DNA from: Muricea muricata
Lineage: Eukaryota > Cnidaria > Anthozoa > Malacalcyonacea > Plexauridae
Assembly: GCA_963855995.1 (NCBI GenBank)
Contig: OY979726.1
Coordinates: 5,872,201 to 5,936,200, forward strand
Length of the DNA stretch: 64,000 nucleotides
Direction of reading: 5' to 3'
Shown here: in pieces, positions 6,530-24,900 of the stretch
Layout: every line of letters begins with the position of its first letter
Numbering within the stretch: the first letter of the stretch is position 1
Translations under genes and position numbers: made by a program
The notes under the pieces: model-generated
Database searches by the model: none
What the model saw: only the letters and a program-made list of their open reading frames with translations
Told to the model about the DNA's origin: nothing

Positions 6530-7684
6530 TTAACAGTAATTAATGGCAGAACTCTTAGCTGTTGGTTTAAATGAGGTTTCGTCTACGAAGTACATTTCTG
6601 CTTCGCTGTGGTACATGAGACTACCATGGCGTTTTAGGGCCTTTTCGTCTTTGAAGGCACACGTTTTCGCGAGACGTCTCGCGAGACCGTCCTCGTCGCG
6701 CGCGGAACACGGGATGCAGTAATACGGATGTTCCGAATTATGAACGGTCGCGTGATGTTCCGCCTGGTAGAGTACACTTTGAAATCTGTGTGGACATTTG
6801 CGGTTCTCGAAGCAAGCCAAGGGATAGACGGTGTAAAAATGTGCCAAATAATGCGCCCGAGTCTCAAAGTACATCTCGCAACCGCAATTGCACTTCTTGT
6901 GCGTGTTTTTCATGTGAATGTCACGTTGTGCGGAGCTTGAAAAGACTTTTTTCGGGCAAAAATCACATGTTAGAACGTTTTGAGAAACGTCTTGTTCATG
7001 GACTACTTGCATGTGAAGAACTTTCGCACCTTGTTCGCAGAAAGTAGGACTGTCATTGCTGCACAATAAACATTTGGTTTGCTTTGATTTATGCAAAGCT
7101 TGTTCGTGTTCATTTCTGAACGGTGTTGTGCTGTGTCGACATAACTTATTATCGCAAAATATATTGTGGTTCGCGCCATTGTGTGCGTGTAGTTGGTTCT
7201 CATCCTCAAATGCTTTGCTACAAATCTTGCAGAAATGAAATCCCAACGTTTTGTAAATATCATCCACCTGTCCATTTATGGTGGACATTTTAACTTTCGA
7301 CGTGCAAGTTTGTTGCTGTAATATCGCAATTAGTTCGTCGTACTTCCGTTCAGTTTCCGAATCGACCACGAAGAAAAAATCCACGGGTTCGAAACCGTTT
7401 TCGGGAGTGTCGTTGTCGATTTCGTCGCTCAAGCAAGCTAAATCTTTAAAATACTTTATTAAAAACGCCATCAGGGTCGTGTCAGAAGCGTAGGGCGAAG
7501 TCGTAAAGGAATCGTAGAGTTCAATCCATTTCATCGTTGCTGGGCGATTTTTTATCGGCGTGTCCTTGCGCAGGAATATGCGCAGTTTAATTTCATCTAA
7601 AAGTTCGTCGGGTAGACAGGCCAGATCTTCCAAAATATTTCGACAGTTGCTCTCCCAGACCATGAATATCTCAATTCGCTCCAT
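6530..7684 (-). CDS. C2H2-type zinc-finger protein, single long exon
   Basis: A 384-residue uninterrupted frame with well-formed fingers. C152-x2-C155-x12-H168-x4-H173 and C240-x2-C243-x13-H257-x4-H262 are canonical C2H2 spacings, and C205/C208 with H224/H229 form a looser one. Several more Cys/His pairs follow to about residue 345. The N-terminal 145 residues are acidic and helical, with repeated DLACL(P/S)DE segments at 20-28 and 81-88. The start is the ATG at 7684. The frame upstream of it is closed by TGA within a few codons. Nucleic-acid binding is the family expectation, but no target can be inferred. It lies head-to-head with SMC6. It could be the last exon of a longer gene or a domesticated transposon gene. 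Confidence 0.6.
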   Translation of the reverse strand: MERIEIFMVWESNCRNILEDLACLPDELLDEIKLRIFLRKDTPIKNRPATMKWIELYDSFTTSPYASDTTLMAFLIKYFKDLACLSDEIDNDTPENGFEPVDFFFVVDSETERKYDELIAILQQQTCTSKVKMSTINGQVDDIYKTLGFHFCKICSKAFEDENQLHAHNGANHNIFCDNKLCRHSTTPFRNEHEQALHKSKQTKCLLCSNDSPTFCEQGAKVLHMQVVHEQDVSQNVLTCDFCPKKVFSSSAQRDIHMKNTHKKCNCGCEMYFETRAHYLAHFYTVYPLACFENRKCPHRFQSVLYQAEHHATVHNSEHPYYCIPCSARDEDGLARRLAKTCAFKDEKALKRHGSLMYHSEAEMYFVDETSFKPTAKSSAINYC

Positions 7685-8106
7685 CAGTATATGAAGTAAT
7701 CATGTATGTCTTATTCTGGGTAATGTGCAGCACTGACTTTTCTGATTTTGATAATTCAGCTAATCCAGTGATGGCTGGATTGATAATGCTGACAATATTC
7801 TTCAACTCGACTTTATTAATTTGCTTTGTCATACTAAGGATTAATTTTCTGTCTGTGTGACGCTTCACACAAAAGGCATTTCTACCTAGGCATTCAGCTG
7901 GCTTAAGAAGATAAACAAATCTCAATTTACCGCCTGTCGACCGAATTTCAATGTCGTCAGTAATTATATGGTGACCGTGATAAATTTATTGGATTTTTTG
8001 GCGGAGTCACCTGAGCTTTCACTACCGGAGTAGGCTGCTTTCAAGGGTGGAAATTTACAATTTGAATCAGCATTATTTAGGACTGGTAATTTTGAAACTT
8101 GAGCTC
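7671..8106 (-). pseudogene. Coding-like sequence upstream of the zinc-finger frame, broken or alternately spliced
   Basis: Directly upstream of the zinc-finger ATG, a different minus-strand frame is open for about 105 codons (to about 7984). It has a protein-like composition, with segments LRFVYLLKPAECLGRN and HTDRKLILSMTK. It overlaps the zinc-finger start by a few bases and ends in TGA. Further upstream (to about 8106) a third frame is open for about 44 codons and ends at TAA. No convincing donor or acceptor joins them. Either frameshifts have broken an older, longer gene or small introns were missed. The product was not recognised. Confidence 0.35.
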
Positions 8107-8987: not shown

Positions 8988-8995
8988 AGGACAAT

Positions 8996-10824
8996 CACTG
9001 ACCTGAATGATATGGACCGCGCACGTCATACAAATGACTGAAGCCAAAATGACGCCATCGCCGCCATGTTTTGGTGCTAAAATGTTCGATTTTCGAAGTT
9101 TTACCATGCCAATTTCGACGCCAAAAAATACGCCGTTACATTTTGAAATCCTAGCAGTTTTTCATGTCAACAAAACCAGGACATATTCAAGAAACTTTTT
9201 AAAGCTTACAACGTTTGAACAAATCCTGTATATCGAAAAGATCGCATGATAAAGACGAAGATTCGACCAATTCCTGCATTCGAATTTTCCTGTTGAGGCG
9301 AGCTGATTTCCCGCCATCGCTGGTCTGGCCGTTCTCATCTCCCGAGTGGAAAAGTACACACTTTATATTAAATGTTTGAAACCAAATCGGCTTTCGTCGG
9401 CAAGTTTTTCAGCAGAGATCGCTTGGGTAAGTGTCGTGATTTTTCCCCAAAAAAATGTAGTCAGAATATACCCAGATCGTCGAGTAAATACTTCAATTTT
9501 TGAAGATGGGATTTAGCCTAAAATAACTCGAACTAGTTTTAGCTTCCCTCTTTTTACAGTTTGGGTGAGTTTGCCATGTTGCAGGCAATGAAAAGTCTAT
9601 AAAATCTTGCGAAAAACGACGCTATTGTTTGATTCGTGTGATCTATTTTTTAGGCTTACTCTGTGTTCAATACGCGAGATATACGTTTATAAAAAGGAAA
9701 TACTAGAATTTTTTAAAATTTAGTATGTCAGTTAACAGTATATATAGTGAAGTTGGTTTCATAATTTTTTTGTGCGAGTGAGCGTTCATATTTTACCATG
9801 CATACGTTCTAGAACGAAGGAATAACGTGCAAGGCAGGCTGCAAGTCTAACACAACGCAAGGTGAACCGGCTACAAAAGGCAACAAAATCCTTCGATAAT
9901 TTTCTTTTTTCTTTTTAAATAATCTTATTTTTATACATATTTAATGAAACAACCACTACATTGATATCGTAAAGCCTCTGAATGCACTGGCTCACAAGGT
10001 TGGCACGCTCTTTTCCTGTTAATGAATCAACCAAAAAGTATCCAGAAGGGACCTTCCATGATTCATTAAGTGCAACAACCATGAGAACCAGTGCATTTTT
10101 TGCCATAGGTGAAGAATCATCATCATTGACATTACAGCCAAGATCAACATATCCCAAAAATGACTTTCCATTCCACGACACATGTTTTCGAATAGCCATT
10201 TCATCAAGCAGTAGAGCACACAGTACCGGCTTGTTTTCATTCTTTGCTTTATCAGCATGGGTCTTTAAAGCATCAAATGCTGGTTGAGTAAAGCCTGGGC
10301 CAGCTGGTACTTTGCTATACCATTTCCTGATCTGTGCTTGATGAGGCAGGGCAAGATTAAATGTAGTGCGAACATATTCATATGCCTTTGCAGAGTAATA
10401 TTGCAAAGTCATTGCAAATGATCTCAGTTCTGGTGGGTAAGGTGTGTTCTTTTTGTTAGTCAACCTTTTAATGAGTTGTGTAGGGACACCAGATAGAGTA
10501 TTATGCAATGAATCCTCACATTCTGGGGAGATTAGACCACTTTTAGAGAGGGTTTGCACAACATCATTTAATGTATTGAACCATTGTGATAATCTCCTGT
10601 TTTTTTGTTGGGCTATTTTTAGCTTTTTTCTTAGCACAGTATTCTGCTGTGACAAAATTTTGTTTTTTCGTTTAAGTACGCTTACTGGTGATGCATGGAA
10701 TGTGTTACTGTTATCAAGAGTAAGACCTACTTCAGGCTGTGGAGGTGTACTGGTGATGGCACTTGTTTTTGGCTCACTGCATTCTTTAGGTGCTTTTCTT
10801 TCCTTTGTTTCCTAAGCAGAACAA
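8996..10824 (-). repeat. Left arm of the P-type palindrome
   Basis: This 1,829-base arm is the exact mirror of 11082-12910 wherever I compared it. From the axis outward it carries a transposase exon (9915-10811, minus strand), then about 900 bases of non-coding 3' end. The homology stops at 10824, where the word GCAGAACAA ends. Confidence 0.9.
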
Positions 10825-11084
10825 CATGTTTATTTCATACTTTATTTGTTATCTTTAATTAGGTGGTACAAAATTACACAGGAAATGTAAAGAAATTAAT
10901 GTGTGGTCATAAATTGTACCTTTTGCAAATGCTCAGGAAAATGAAAGATGGTGGGCACTGCATCTTGATGTAGGTGTACTCTTGTTGTTGTCCGGTTAAA
11001 GCACGACTCATTAAAGTGATCTGAGCACAGCCTGTCGTTGGGAGAGGGTTGGTAATCTTTCAATCTCAAGTTCCAGAGCCATTG
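9915..11084 (-). pseudogene. THAP / P-element transposase remnant (minus-strand copy)
   Basis: The exon at 11084-10920 encodes the second half of a THAP zinc-binding domain: QWLWNL, a CSDHF motif with the zinc-ligand Cys and His, then the AVPTIF box. It is spliced in phase 0 to 10811-9915 (298 codons). That exon has a leucine-zipper-like segment (LSQQNTVLRKKLK), then the P-transposase RNase-H-like start with LLLDEMAIRK, whose D is the likely first catalytic acid. It stops soon after a VVVVSL segment. The GTP-binding-type insertion and the remaining catalytic acids are absent. Upstream, the arm junction puts TAA two codons before the THAP remnant, so there is no start. THAP plus this core is diagnostic of P-element/THAP9-type transposases. 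Confidence 0.85.
10825..11081 (-). other. Loop of the P-type palindrome, carrying a THAP exon remnant
   Basis: This 257-base single-copy loop lies between the arms. On the minus strand it contains the C-terminal part of a THAP-domain exon, a GT donor at 10919-10918 and the intron leading to the exon in the left arm. Because only one copy exists, only the minus-strand transposase remnant has THAP sequence. Confidence 0.85.
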
Positions 11085-12910
11085 TTCTGCTTAGGAAACA
11101 AAGGAAAGAAAAGCACCTAAAGAATGCAGTGAGCCAAAAACAAGTGCCATCACCAGTACACCTCCACAGCCTGAAGTAGGTCTTACTCTTGATAACAGTA
11201 ACACATTCCATGCATCACCAGTAAGCGTACTTAAACGAAAAAACAAAATTTTGTCACAGCAGAATACTGTGCTAAGAAAAAAGCTAAAAATAGCCCAACA
11301 AAAAAACAGGAGATTATCACAATGGTTCAATACATTAAATGATGTTGTGCAAACCCTCTCTAAAAGTGGTCTAATCTCCCCAGAATGTGAGGATTCATTG
11401 CATAATACTCTATCTGGTGTCCCTACACAACTCATTAAAAGGTTGACTAACAAAAAGAACACACCTTACCCACCAGAACTGAGATCATTTGCAATGACTT
11501 TGCAATATTACTCTGCAAAGGCATATGAATATGTTCGCACTACATTTAATCTTGCCCTGCCTCATCAAGCACAGATCAGGAAATGGTATAGCAAAGTACC
11601 AGCTGGCCCAGGCTTTACTCAACCAGCATTTGATGCTTTAAAGACCCATGCTGATAAAGCAAAGAATGAAAACAAGCCGGTACTGTGTGCTCTACTGCTT
11701 GATGAAATGGCTATTCGAAAACATGTGTCGTGGAATGGAAAGTCATTTTTGGGATATGTTGATCTTGGCTGTAATGTCAATGATGATGATTCTTCACCTA
11801 TGGCAAAAAATGCACTGGTTCTCATGGTTGTTGCACTTAATGAATCATGGAAGGTCCCTTCTGGATACTTTTTGGTTGATTCATTAACAGGAAAAGAGCG
11901 TGCCAACCTTGTGAGCCAGTGCATTCAGAGGCTTTACGATATCAATGTAGTGGTTGTTTCATTAAATATGTATAAAAATAAGATTATTTAAAAAGAAAAA
12001 AGAAAATTATCGAAGGATTTTGTTGCCTTTTGTAGCCGGTTCACCTTGCGTTGTGTTAGACTTGCAGCCTGCCTTGCACGTTATTCCTTCGTTCTAGAAC
12101 GTATGCATGGTAAAATATGAACGCTCACTCGCACAAAAAAATTATGAAACCAACTTCACTATATATACTGTTAACTGACATACTAAATTTTAAAAAATTC
12201 TAGTATTTCCTTTTTATAAACGTATATCTCGCGTATTGAACACAGAGTAAGCCTAAAAAATAGATCACACGAATCAAACAATAGCGTCGTTTTTCGCAAG
12301 ATTTTATAGACTTTTCATTGCCTGCAACATGGCAAACTCACCCAAACTGTAAAAAGAGGGAAGCTAAAACTAGTTCGAGTTATTTTAGGCTAAATCCCAT
12401 CTTCAAAAATTGAAGTATTTACTCGACGATCTGGGTATATTCTGACTACATTTTTTTGGGGAAAAATCACGACACTTACCCAAGCGATCTCTGCTGAAAA
12501 ACTTGCCGACGAAAGCCGATTTGGTTTCAAACATTTAATATAAAGTGTGTACTTTTCCACTCGGGAGATGAGAACGGCCAGACCAGCGATGGCGGGAAAT
12601 CAGCTCGCCTCAACAGGAAAATTCGAATGCAGGAATTGGTCGAATCTTCGTCTTTATCATGCGATCTTTTCGATATACAGGATTTGTTCAAACGTTGTAA
12701 GCTTTAAAAAGTTTCTTGAATATGTCCTGGTTTTGTTGACATGAAAAACTGCTAGGATTTCAAAATGTAACGGCGTATTTTTTGGCGTCGAAATTGGCAT
12801 GGTAAAACTTCGAAAATCGAACATTTTAGCACCAAAACATGGCGGCGATGGCGTCATTTTGGCTTCAGTCATTTGTATGACGTGCGCGGTCCATATCATT
12901 CAGGTCAGTG
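11082..12910 (+). repeat. Right arm of the P-type palindrome
   Basis: This is the mirror copy of the left arm. It begins TTGTTCTGC, the complement of the word that closes the left arm, and ends CATTCAGGTCAGTG next to the target duplication at 12911-12918. Confidence 0.9.
11095..11991 (+). pseudogene. P-element transposase remnant (plus-strand copy)
   Basis: This is identical in translation to the minus-strand exon at 10811-9915 and starts at the same acceptor (CTGCTTAG, ending at 11094). It lacks any THAP exon because the loop encodes that only on the other strand. An internal ATG at 11251 could start a 246-residue fragment covering the zipper and the first catalytic acid. The C-terminal half of the enzyme is missing, so it cannot be catalytically active. 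A fragment with the dimerising zipper could in principle act as a repressor, as truncated P products do in flies, but that is speculation. Confidence 0.8.
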
Positions 12911-12995
12911 AGGACAATGGACAACACAAAATGGTGAAAATCATCGCTTTATTTTGTGGTTATTAACGTACTCTCCCCCTAAAGACGAAAAGATA

Positions 12996-15900
12996 ATGGA
13001 AAGAAAGCGTGGTAGAAGTGAAGCAGAGAGCAGTGGCTCCAAACGGCTGCGTACTGATGAGAATAGAGATGGCCATGTTCGTGATGTTCCTGATACTGAC
13101 AGTGATGAAGAAATTAACTGCTCTCAAAATCCTGATTTTACAGCACCAGGACAAAATGTGAGATGCATGCTATTCTAGCTAATGTAAAGATAGTTTCAAT
13201 GAATGATTTTGTTCAAGGTTGTGTGTATTTTACTGGGAATTTTGGAAGGCAAATACGGCTACTTAAGCGAGCTATGTGGTTGTTGTTCATATCCATCAAT
13301 CACGTGCAAGGTGTTGCATTACCAAAGTTACACTTGTATCTTGGGTTTACATATATTGCAAGTTTAGAGGTGATTTCTTGAGAGACTTGCTGAAATACTA
13401 CTAGCAGAGGCACATTATCAAGAAACAAGACTAGCAGCTAAAAGTATAATTGGTCAGATGTCTGCCATGTCAATAGACTTAATATTAAACAATTATTGCA
13501 TGAGGTCGAGCTGGATATGAGGAATTATTAAGGCAGAGGTTTGTGTTAACACAAACCGAGGCCTTAGTAATTCCTTGTATCCTGCGAGAATCAAATTCAA
13601 TCATTGTTTTTTTATTTTTTGACAAATATTTTAAACTCAGTTTAAATGCTTGCTTTGTAAGAAAGAAGACACAAGCTGCTGAAATGCATGAAATTGTTCA
13701 GAAACTTTAAAAAGCCAATCAGACACGAAAAGAATATTCTTAATTGTCAGCCACATCAAATGAAACAATTTGCCTGGCAACAATATGTGCAAACATCAGT
13801 TTTTAAAGCTCCTCTGTTGCACATGACCTGCTTTGCCATGTGTACGTACATAATTGGACATTGCTCTGACTTTACAAAATAACATATACACAAAATAATG
13901 CATTGTTGCCAGGCAAATTGTGTCAAAATATGCAAAATTGAAAAGTTTGTATTGTGTGGTAGTGATATCTGCTGAATAATTTTGATCTCTTCCGTATATT
14001 TTCTATTAAATTTTGTGAATCTCTGGCACAGAACTTTCAACTTTTCCAGTCTGGCCTTAGGATGGCAATGAGAATGAACTGCCTGACGATGTTCTCTCTT
14101 TAGTAATAGTATAACAGTGATGGGATTATGTTGTGTAGAATGAGGCTGAAAGTGGAGTTATAGAAGAAATTACACTGCAGAATTTTATGTGTCATTCACA
14201 TCTCAGAGTACCGTTTTCATCCAATGTGAATTTCATTACTGGAAGAAATGGAAGTGAGTAACAATTATTATTTTGTAAAGTCTGACCAGTGGATTGTTTG
14301 TACTCTGAGCAGGGGTGGGGGAACTAGTGAAAGGTCAGGTTTGAGCCCGATTTGACACTTCCAACATTCACTAACCTTGTCTGTAAAAACAATGGCTTAG
14401 AAATTGTCAGTCTGTTGATTTGCAGTTTATAAGTTACAGCAAAATTATTTTCATCAATAAATAAAGACAAGTTAGGTCATACTAAGTTTGATGCCTGCTG
14501 TGCATTTGACAATTGGACAGACACTCATGCAATAAATTGGTTTTTCAAGGTGGAAAAAGTGCTATTATGACAGCTATAGTGGTTGGTTTGGGTGGGAAAG
14601 CGTCTAACACAAACAGAGGAAGCTCCTTGAAAGGATTTGTCAAAGACAAGTGCAAGTAAGCCTACAAAATTTAATGGTATTATTATTATCATCTTTATAT
14701 GCATTCTAATTAGTATATTTACCTATATACAAATAAATGCATACAAATAACACTCCAAGCATGCACCTTGGCTGCTCACTTTGCTGAATGTTCGAAAGGT
14801 TTGGGTGGAAAGCTTGTTGTTACTAGTTATAAAGTCTATATAATAGAATGTAAGAATGATGAAACAATTATTGAACTTGGTTCTTGCTAAACATAGTGAT
14901 TTGTCGGTCGCTCGCTGTTCAATTATTTGCCTCTGGTTTTCTGTAGTCTCTATCTTTTTGTTTTTCTATACAATTTGCACTTTGATACAGTACTGCTGTG
15001 ATCAAAATAAAACTGAAAAACTATGGTGAAGATGCATTCAAACCAAATGATTATGGATTGCATATCATTGTTGAAAGAAAGATATCAAGTGATGGCGCTG
15101 GCTCTTATAAAATATGTAATGAAAGAGGTAAGTTAAATCAGAGAGTTAAATGTTTGAAAATGCAGGGCTCAAAAGTCCATGCCTGTATGTTTTTTGCAGG
15201 TAGCCAAAAGCAATTTGCAGTAACTGTTAGCTCTTTACGGTTCAAATTTACAGTTAATTTCAACTAACTGTTTGCAATAAAGTTCAAAGGCTTGTTGTAA
15301 AATTCAGTAGTTCATTTCAGAATTTGCAAGCTGGTTTGTAAACGAAGACTGTTATTGGCCCCTGAACTTAAAGATTGAAGCAGATCAAATGCTTACTGTG
15401 CAAACTGGCTTGCAAATTCGGAAATAACCTATTAAACTTTGCAACAAACCTCCAAACTTTGATTCCAACAAAGTTTGGTATATTATAGTAGAAAGTTAGC
15501 TGAGGTTGTCTGTAAAGCTCAGAAGCTGCAACAGTTCTAATGCATCAACCATTTTTTTGTGAGTTGTGTATCATATTGCCAAAGATGACTAGATGAGACC
15601 TGCTAAGTTGCTCAAAGCTAGTTGCTTTAAAATTTCATGTATTTAATTAGGGCATTCAAGATTGTAGCTGATGATACAATATAATATTAATTAAAACATT
15701 TTTCATATCAGTAATTTAAATAGCTGCAATCAGCAAAAGGTTAAGTGGCAAAATATCAACAACAAAATATGACTAATCCCCTTGACCTGCATCAATCAAC
15801 TTTGACTAGTTAAATAAAAAAAAATTGGCCAGTCATTGATTGGCGAATCCTTTACCAGCTGATAATTTCAACGTAGATAAAAGTAAAGTAATTCTGAATA

Positions 15901-21900: not shown

Positions 21901-24900
21901 ATTTGACTCAAACTTATGAAGAGCCTGACTGACTGCTGGTTCTGAAATCGGCAAGGTGACTTGCGTTATGGCCAAGGTGCCGTAGTACCAAGCTGTTCTA
22001 ACTTACCTAAACTCCATTTTTAGGTGCTTGTATCACGCTTCGTGAAGATATTTGGGCCGTTGCAGTGGAAACGTGTCTCAAGGGGCTGGCGTTTGCATAT
22101 TGTTGTCATGATTTTCATGATTCAACTGTCTTAAGAGAAGTTATGAAAGAATTGTTTGATCAAGACAGAATGCCAGCGATTGTCATATCCAAGTTTCAGG
22201 TTCGTCTTAACACGCAATGATGTCGCTATTGACAACTGTGTTTCTAGTATCATTCATGCAGAATCGAAAAAAGAAACTAAAACAAACCAATACAATAGAT
22301 CCCACCTTGCTAGGTTGGCTCATATTTCATTTTCCAGTTTATTGTCCTCGAATAAATAGACCTCAAAATAATGAGAATTTTTAAAAATTATCAATGCTGC
22401 ACATATTTGTTTTTTTATTTTTCACTACAGGATGCGTTTTATGACGTCTCAGCAAACGTAAGTTCCATGTAAACGATATGTATGTGTTGTGAATGCTGAA
22501 TTGCTTGGTCTAAATGTCACTTGTTTGTTTGATTGTGATGATTTACATTTCTTTTTGTTTAGAAACCTCGATGTCGTTACCCAACTGTCACTGATGTTCT
22601 ACAGATTGACGATCCTGTCATTTTTAACTGCATTGTTGATCAAGTATGTATTTATATATGTTTAAATACACCACTAACGCACATCTCTCTAACAGACATC
22701 CCTCTGATATAGACATCTCTCTAATACGTCTGTATTAGAGAGATGTTTATATTAGAGATATGTCTGTATCTCTAGTACAGACATCTGTAATATGGACATC
22801 TCTCTAATACAGACACCTCTCTAATACAGACACCTCTCTAATACAGACACCTCGCTAATACGGGCATCTCGCTAATACGGGCATCTTTCTAATACAGACA
22901 CCTCTCTAATACGGACATCTCTCTAGTACAGACACCTCTCTAATACGGGCATCTTTCTAATACAGACACGTTTCTAATACGGACATCTCTCTAATACAGA
23001 CACCTCTCTAATACGGGCGTCTTTCTAATACAGACACCTCTCTAATACAAACACCTCTCTAATACAGACATCTTTCTCGTACAGGCACCTCTCTAATACA
23101 GGCACCTCTCTAATACGGGCATATCTCTAATACGGGCATCTTTCTAATACGGGCATCTTTCTAACACAGACACCTCTCTAATACAGACATCTCTCGAATA
23201 CAGACATCTGTCTAACACAGACATCTCTCTAACACAGACACCTCTCTAATACAGACACCTCTTTAATACAGACATCTCTCTATTACGGGCATCTTTCTTA
23301 AACAGACATCTTTCTAATACGGGCATCTCTCTAACGCAGACGTCTCTCTAATACAGACATCTCTCTAATACCTATTACAGGTATCTAATACAAACTTCTT
23401 AAATGTAGAGGAATAGCTCTAGTACGCACACCTCTCTAATATGAACATCGTTATAGCCTGGACACACAGCTAACGTTCAGCTTTATTAATACCATTATCT
23501 ATATTGAAACATATAGAGAGGTGCGGAGTGTATTCTGTTGATCAAAGATCCTAAAGAAGCTCGGGATGTTATGTTTAACCGTCCTCCTACCAAGGCTGAA
23601 GTGGTGAGTTCTCTGCAGTTTTCACGAGCGATTTTATCTTTTTGGCATTGTGAACGTCTGAACGATGGGAAGTATTACGGTTCTTCACACTTGCACCACT
23701 TGTCATGGAGATTCACGTCTAATTTACATTTTGCATACACCAGAAGTAGAATATCGCACCTTAAGTCGTCCATGTGAACTGTACTAGTGAGTAGATGTAA
23801 TATAAGATATCGTAAGTTTCCCAATGATGAATCCATCCTTGCGCTCATAGTTATATATTACGTCATGATTGGCTGTATCAAATTACGTCATGATTGATTA
23901 TGGTATATGTGAAGATTCTTATGGGACTCTTCTCTTGTCGTGCAACGCAGGAGGGGAGCTGAGGGGAACCAACTTGATATTTTATCCTGTTTATGTTGTA
24001 CATGGTATGGTATGGTATGGTGTGGTATGTTGTAGTATGGTGAGATAGGATGTGATATGATGTATGTGTTAAAATATGGTGTAGGGTGGTCTGCATGGTG
24101 AGCTGGTAGGGTATAGCATTCTACCATAAGGTGTGAGCGAGTACAATATAATATGATAATATATTGAATTTATATTGTGCATGTTGGCATAGATTATGTT
24201 CACATGCGCATGGCATGGGGCGGTAGATTTTGGTATGTACTCGCACATGAAATTACTCTTATCAAGACAAAATTAGCTTCGCTCTTAACTGTTGTTGATT
24301 TGGAACTCTCTGTTATCCCACTTTCACTATCTCACGGCATGTTTACTTTTTTAGGCATTTGCATCTACTGGTGAAGAAATTCACGGTGGGGCGAGTGCCA
24401 AATCTTATGGTTACAGTGGCAGTGGAAGTAGTTATTTAAAGGGAAATATTGAAGATCAAATAAGGTATGACATTATTAGATCAGTATTTGTGTGTTGTCG
24501 GACAAGCAATTACTATTACAATCATCTTTCCTCTAATCTTTCTGCAGGTAAACAGAGTGGAAAAAAAGAACGCGTTTCAAACTATTATTTTCCTTTCTCT
24601 CAGACGTGTCCAAGCTCAGCTGGATGAAGAAACTGGTAGACATAATGATCTGAAAAGTAAACAAGTCAAACAGGAAAAAGATTTAAAAGAACTTCAAGCA
24701 GAATTGAAGAAAAGTAGAATAAAAAGCATGAAAGAACAAGAAAAATACAACAACATCTTACAGGTTTGAGTAAACTCGACATTTTTTCGTTCTTCAGGCT
24801 CGTGTCTGATTCATGCACAAGCTGAAGATTTGCCATAACTGTAATACATAACTGTACATATTAAAATACTTCAGGATATAACAGAACTGGAACAATTTGA

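Follow-up and report, generated by a model that had tools for sequence, protein, structure and literature searches.

The 64,000-nucleotide (nt) stretch of Muricea muricata DNA analysed here (the window; contig OY979726.1 of assembly GCA_963855995.1) contains a 3,915-nt palindrome of the P superfamily of transposons, which consists of two 1,829-nt arms and a 257-nt loop. We consider it probable that this element descends, together with two further genomic copies, from one ancestral palindrome, which carried the 5' end of its family on both sides and would have been mobilised in trans by the transposase of its relatives. The left arm (8996-10824) is the reverse complement of positions 11082-12910 with 1829 of 1829 aligned bases identical, and the whole palindrome is flanked by an exact 8-base-pair (bp) duplication, AGGACAAT, at 8988-8995 and 12911-12918; both features had been recognised in an earlier sequence-only reading of the window. 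That two preset positions agree exactly over 8 bp is expected by chance with a probability of 4^-8, or about 1.5e-5. The arms account for 3,658 of the 3,915 nt, and both outer ends of the palindrome start with 5'-CACTGACCTGAATGATATGG. The element is composed of the following features (positions in the window; TIR, terminal inverted repeat):

8988..8995, no strand: left target-site duplication AGGACAAT, exact copy at 12911-12918
8996..10824, plus strand: left arm, arm positions 1-1829, identical to the inverted right arm
8996..9603, plus strand: arm 1-608, the TIR of the family, found at both ends of relatives (608-bp TIR in element L011)
9604..9940, plus strand: arm 609-945, which adjoins the TIR at the transposase-proximal 5' end of relatives
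9940/9941: junction a (arm 945/946), where the 5' end meets the cut transposase exon
9941..10811, minus strand: arm 946-1816, fragment of the main transposase exon (helix-turn-helix, start of RNase H), read outwards
10825..11081, minus strand: single-copy loop with most of an intron and the 3' part of the THAP exon, homologous to a region in relatives
11082..11086, plus strand: TTGTT, 5-bp microhomology at junction b (loop/right arm), assignable to either side
11082..12910, minus strand: right arm, arm positions 1829 to 1 as read on the plus strand, identical to the inverted left arm
12911..12918, no strand: right target-site duplication AGGACAAT, exact copy at 8988-8995

The arrangement is not the plain inverted dimer proposed in the sequence-only reading. 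Instead, each arm consists of 945 nt from the 5' end followed by an 884-nt segment of transposase exon and intron edge, which is inverted relative to the intact element. The splice sites of the intron in the loop were judged by eye, with the donor near 10919. A truncated THAP protein with its start in the loop was considered and rejected: by eye, the THAP frame on the minus strand hits a TAA stop where the right arm begins, and no start codon lies in between.

A search of the genome (453 Mb in 74 contigs) with one arm gave at least 67 matches (40 of 53 candidates scored); all genome match counts given here are lower bounds. The 19 regions fetched cover the arm matches outside the window, and five loci with weaker end matches (one each on C5 and C53, two on C2, and C3:38040487) were left unfetched. 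The sequence-only reading had suggested looking for other palindromic copies and for the intact monomer, and the genome contains the former and candidates for the latter. Two more palindromes have the same two internal junctions, L009 at C3:36958531-36962441 with GATCGGAT on both sides and L010 at C3:12955317-12959238 with ACCACGTT on both sides, and L011 and L012 are elements of 5,227 nt, each with an open transposase exon of 803 amino acids. Junction a was matched over its full length at six places, which are the two arms of the three palindromes, and the remaining 18 of the 24 matches are restricted to one of its sides (24 of 24 candidates scored). For junction b there are three full-length matches, and each of the remaining 37 of 40 is confined to one half (21 of 21 candidates scored); the two halves of this query (1-87 and 83-171) overlap by the 5 nt TTGTT, and matches to the left half place the end of the THAP exon at 20 loci or more, three of which are the palindromes. 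The six arms form one clade, with support of 100/99 in the tree of the 5' part and 98/98 in that of the exon part, trees which include 11 monomer 5' ends and seven monomer exon pieces rather than every relative. The loop has variants that were seen in the palindromes only, and no similarity was found between the 1-kb flanks of different palindromes. As far as sequence comparison can tell, these data show one ancestral palindrome with two fixed internal junctions, which is now present at three sites with 8-bp duplications of their own.

Formation of each palindrome in place from a monomer, independently of the others, would agree with the observation that in two of the three copies the arms within a copy are closer to each other than to the arms of other copies. 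This scenario has hardly any probability left, however: it is ruled out by the two junctions common to all three copies and the single arm clade, and the palindrome-only loop variants speak against it as well. A false inverted duplication made during assembly could also yield identical arms, as found in two of the three copies. Such an artefact is very unlikely, since the same palindrome stands at three loci with different flanks and clean duplications, two of them with known empty sites (see below), and since the arms of L009 differ at 12 positions, which means that the assembly resolves the arms.

The open reading frame at 9915-10811 in the arm matches the Pfam families PF12017 (E 2.6e-24) and PF21787 (E 7.1e-41), and the 803-amino-acid exons of L011 and L012 both contain PF12017, PF21787, PF21788, PF21789, and PF22824. 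The exon upstream of the latter in L011 encodes a THAP domain (PF05485, profile positions 22-87, E 6e-14). The Drosophila P transposase (6p5a, E 1.4e-23; 6pe2) was the only PDB sequence matching the L011 exon at E 0.001 or better. These domains and the PDB match bear out the assignment to the P superfamily that had been made from the window alone. TIR identity in the three elements tested was 98.7% over 608 bp (L011), 99.5% over 609 bp (L019), and 97.2% over 607 columns (L013), and the first 305 nt of the TIR have at least 41 matches in the genome (40 of 41 candidates scored). A perfect 8-bp duplication flanks 13 of the 14 elements with both ends placed, including all three palindromes, the exception being L012 with five of eight positions matching; L015, L023-L027, and the second element of L021 were left out of this count, with a terminus missing or unplaced. 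Because 13 of 14 elements share it, 8 bp can be taken as the duplication length of the family, as the sequence-only reading had supposed from P-type transposition. Judged by its domains and termini, the palindrome is a member of a P-superfamily family with long TIRs, which resembles Galileo, a known fold-back member of this superfamily, in structure.

Several relatives have features of their own. The 8-mers flanking L012 (G000:C3:55804231-55809457) are different, CCTGTGAT and CCATTGAG, and may point to the breakpoint of a recombination or inversion, a feature that has been reported for Galileo. L021 (G000:C1:11275158-11282366) comprises two family members head to head, 22 bp apart, the first with its own duplication, GAAAACGC. 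L014 and L022 are copies of 6.9 and 8.2 kb that exceed the 5,227-nt elements, have perfect 8-bp duplications, and were probably enlarged by insertions. The 13 target sites may have a weak palindromic preference about the duplication (T.TG on the left, CA.A on the right).

The relatives also indicate which end is repeated. In the 11 relatives with both ends, oriented by their transposase, all 11 5' ends match the arm from position 1 to 945-949, whereas 10 of the 11 3' ends match it from 1 to 604-607 (1-370 in the first piece of L014), and none of the 3' ends extends past arm position 607. The second L021 element (L021b) yielded no 5' end and lies outside this count, and L027, a diverged single end of uncertain polarity, matches arm 1-715 at 88%. 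Most likely, the palindrome carries the upstream end, 5' of the transposase, twice, and not the downstream terminus named in the sequence-only reading. The 5' origin is assigned because positions 607-945 point there; positions 1-606 could come from either end, the TIRs being nearly equal. The same reading had claimed that two equal ends are sufficient for transposition, which holds for this family, but here the native ends themselves differ little, with 98.7% identity over 608 bp in L011. With TIRs of this length two equal ends are unsurprising, and the result says little on Drosophila P, the ends of which differ. Mullins, Rio and Rubin reportedly found in 1989 that Drosophila P requires one 5' and one 3' end. 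As a natural experiment, the palindromes suggest that a long-TIR P-superfamily element needs no more than two identical 5' ends to be inserted, and that mobility and persistence are possible for a nearly complete palindrome.

At L009 and L010 the state before insertion is visible because other copies of the surrounding host repeats run across the insertion point. The joined flanks of L010, with one copy of the duplication, gave at least 41 matches, which belong to a host repeat family (40 of 652 candidates scored); 38 of them cross the join at 81-89% identity, two are L010's own flanks, and one is a short second piece. Eight of these 38 repeats were aligned and none contains an insertion. Six have ACCACGTT, and the other two have one-base variants in its place, CCCACGTT in L033 and ACGACGTT in L035. 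For L009, all 40 scored matches to the joined flanks (of 538 candidates) span the join at 96-98% and represent another host repeat family. The flanks of the window copy are unique, so that its mobility is argued from the shared junctions and the duplication. With a single origin and three sites, at least two moves as a palindrome are implied, barring ectopic gap repair, and one of the sites may be the birthplace. Thus, the palindrome very probably moved as such. In the process envisaged, the transposase of relatives would cut the two equal ends of the non-autonomous palindrome and insert it elsewhere, and this would have happened at least twice.

That the palindrome existed before insertion, as the sequence-only reading had concluded, is consistent with its presence at three sites with separate duplications; insertion of a monomer followed by ectopic repair fits these observations too. 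In this alternative, monomers would have been excised and the gaps filled from a palindrome through the shared TIRs, with the duplications of the monomers kept. Gaps left by excision of Drosophila P can be repaired from other templates, the 608-bp TIRs offer long homology, and both empty sites and duplications are equally compatible with monomer insertion. However, two full-length copyings would be needed, from a distant site and through a 3.9-kb palindrome, and no sequence of a former monomer was seen in L009 or L010, the arms and loop of which match the window palindrome throughout. Although we find ectopic repair unlikely, it lowers our confidence in the transposition of an ancestral palindrome.

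The arms of the window copy are identical to each other, as are those of L010, while the arms of these two copies differ by 15 substitutions and 17 gap columns. Compared with the monomers, L010 has nine private events (seven substitutions and two deletions, one deletion being also present in two of 15 monomer rows) and the window copy has four (one insertion, which resembles one monomer row, and three substitutions, with position 1111 common to one monomer). All of these events are found in both arms, and neither copy has a private change confined to one arm. Between the arms of L009 there are 11 substitutions and one 1-base gap, with two of the private changes of this copy in both arms and 10 in one arm. 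All four arms of the window copy and L009 share substitutions at 879, 1031, and 1216 and lack 9 nt following position 880. The two L009 arms disagree at positions 454 and 1684, and the window copy has the state of one arm at 454 and that of the other at 1684, which fits arm-to-arm conversion. Because the arms are identical in two of three palindromes while the copies differ, arms appear to overwrite one another, and this pattern shows that sequence was copied between the arms of one copy after the copies had parted. Long TIRs were proposed by the Galileo authors to attract recombination and conversion (PMC3573991).

The palindrome may have originated in two steps. First, after a break in the 3' half, repair would have copied the 5' end via the shared TIR as far as position 945, and the copy would have been attached to the broken exon (junction a). 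Second, after a break in the 5' half, the new 3' half would have been copied as far as position 1829 and the copy attached at TTGTT (junction b). In a proposal made for Galileo, one TIR serves as template when a break in the other is repaired, and copying past the TIR lengthens the inverted repeat (PMC3573991); two events of this kind would give the present palindrome. Alternatively, a broken strand could have folded back at TTGTT/AACAA and copied itself to the end, with the hairpin opened and the product later excised by transposase, a scenario which concerns the origin alone and can be combined with later transposition. Such a snap-back would make identical arms automatically and would make use of the 5-bp microhomology at junction b, but it leaves junction a unexplained, so that a separate event is needed. 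It also predicts a birthplace with inverted flanks, whereas in none of the three copies were the left and right flanks found to share a long inverted match (at most 32 nt, in L009); the birthplace may have been lost. Overall, we regard the snap-back as a possible but rather unlikely origin.

Several observations weigh against an ancestral palindrome spread by transposition or against parts of this account. L009 groups with L010 in the loop, by a 5-nt duplication, and with the window copy in the arms, weakly (80/74 and 92/90); loss of the duplication would explain this conflict. The joined-flank search for the window copy gave just two matches, its own flanks, and no empty second copy. The empty sites show insertion at L009 and L010, not the palindromic state at the time of insertion. 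The transposase evidence covers the 803-amino-acid exon in both L011 and L012 and the THAP exon in L011, short of the first coding exon and thus of a complete transposase. The 12 unlike positions in L009 mean that arm copying is not continual. Finally, the two-step origin is a model, and the genome junction search found no intermediate with junction a at one end alone.

Galileo shares with the present family a P-superfamily transposase with a THAP domain and TIRs of hundreds of bp, and its duplications in Drosophila willistoni are 7 or 8 bp (PMC3573991, PMC4168063). Its TIRs grow by inverted uptake of internal sequence, which in D. willistoni copy 147 includes more than 500 bp of the transposase open reading frame (PMC3573991, PMC4168063), and THAP domains bind several sites in the long TIRs (PMC3688188). 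In contrast to Galileo, the palindromes described here have the 5' end on both sides, consist almost entirely of arm, go back to one origin for three copies, and have identical arms in two of these. The sequence-only reading had seen in the element a natural fold-back P element; the palindromic form and its occurrence at three sites agree with this description, but a fold-back member of the superfamily was already known in Galileo (PMC3573991, PMC4168063). The P element of Drosophila melanogaster resembles the family in its homologous transposase (6p5a), 8-bp duplications, and internally deleted non-autonomous copies, and differs in having 31-bp TIRs and unequal ends, as opposed to 608-bp TIRs and two equal ends (PMC7776569). 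The spacing to the transposase site at the two Drosophila ends is 9 and 21 bp (PMC7776569). Zebrafish Pdre2/THAP9 is another THAP-type P transposase system outside insects with 8-bp duplications, but its TIRs are 13 bp long, and the available part of the report does not mention a palindromic form (PMC10983969). The literature searched, which leaves out most subscription journals, contained no P-superfamily palindrome that combines two 5' ends with arm copying; this is no proof of novelty.

Maize Mu killer, a silencing locus (MuDR/Mutator), has both TIRs transposase-proximal and part of the transposase gene in inverted duplication (PMC3440606), a layout also found here. It belongs to another superfamily and is described as one locus, as opposed to three sites here; silencing is reported for Mu killer and conceivable for the palindrome. 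Short antisense transcripts were favoured as the silencing agent of Mu killer, with a contribution of the long hairpin possible and the mechanism left open (PMC3440606). By analogy, hairpin or antisense RNA from the palindrome could feed small RNAs directed against its family. Each arm offers 871 nt of transposase exon, and arm 946-1829 is 95.0-97.7% identical to L011-L014 and L019 over 820-884 nt (lower in others, 87% in L025). Against such a role, the 5' end is joined to a reverse-oriented exon, unlike the description of Mu killer, and open transposase exons persist in the genome, which makes the analogy doubtful. A mobile self-silencer, in which the family transposase would spread the very hairpin locus that shuts the family down while arm copying would keep the hairpin perfect, appears more speculative still. 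Nevertheless, the three loci are a concrete place to ask if self-silencing hairpins of the Mu killer type can be mobile.

The palindrome lies upstream of a putative host gene, which begins with the following feature:

12996..13157, plus strand: candidate first coding exon of the host SMC6 gene, an ATG-started open frame assigned by position only

The right duplication ends 77 nt before this putative ATG, so the palindrome would be located in the 5' untranslated region or promoter of SMC6. SMC6 chains in PDB are matched by the exon at 14139-14252 (best E 3.4e-7), and inspection by eye alone suggests further SMC6-like exons as far as about 29.1 kb. A 603-nt tandem array of 17-nt units (22769-23371) is located within the stretch read by eye as the SMC6 gene. 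On the other side of the palindrome, the minus-strand open reading frame 6533-7699 gave sub-threshold C2H2 zinc-finger matches only. No transfer RNA was found in the window or at the COX1 locus on contig C74. A second COX1-like match (L037, G000:C1:38414782-38416095) is located on a 124-Mb contig, has one internal stop, and is perhaps a nuclear copy of mitochondrial DNA.

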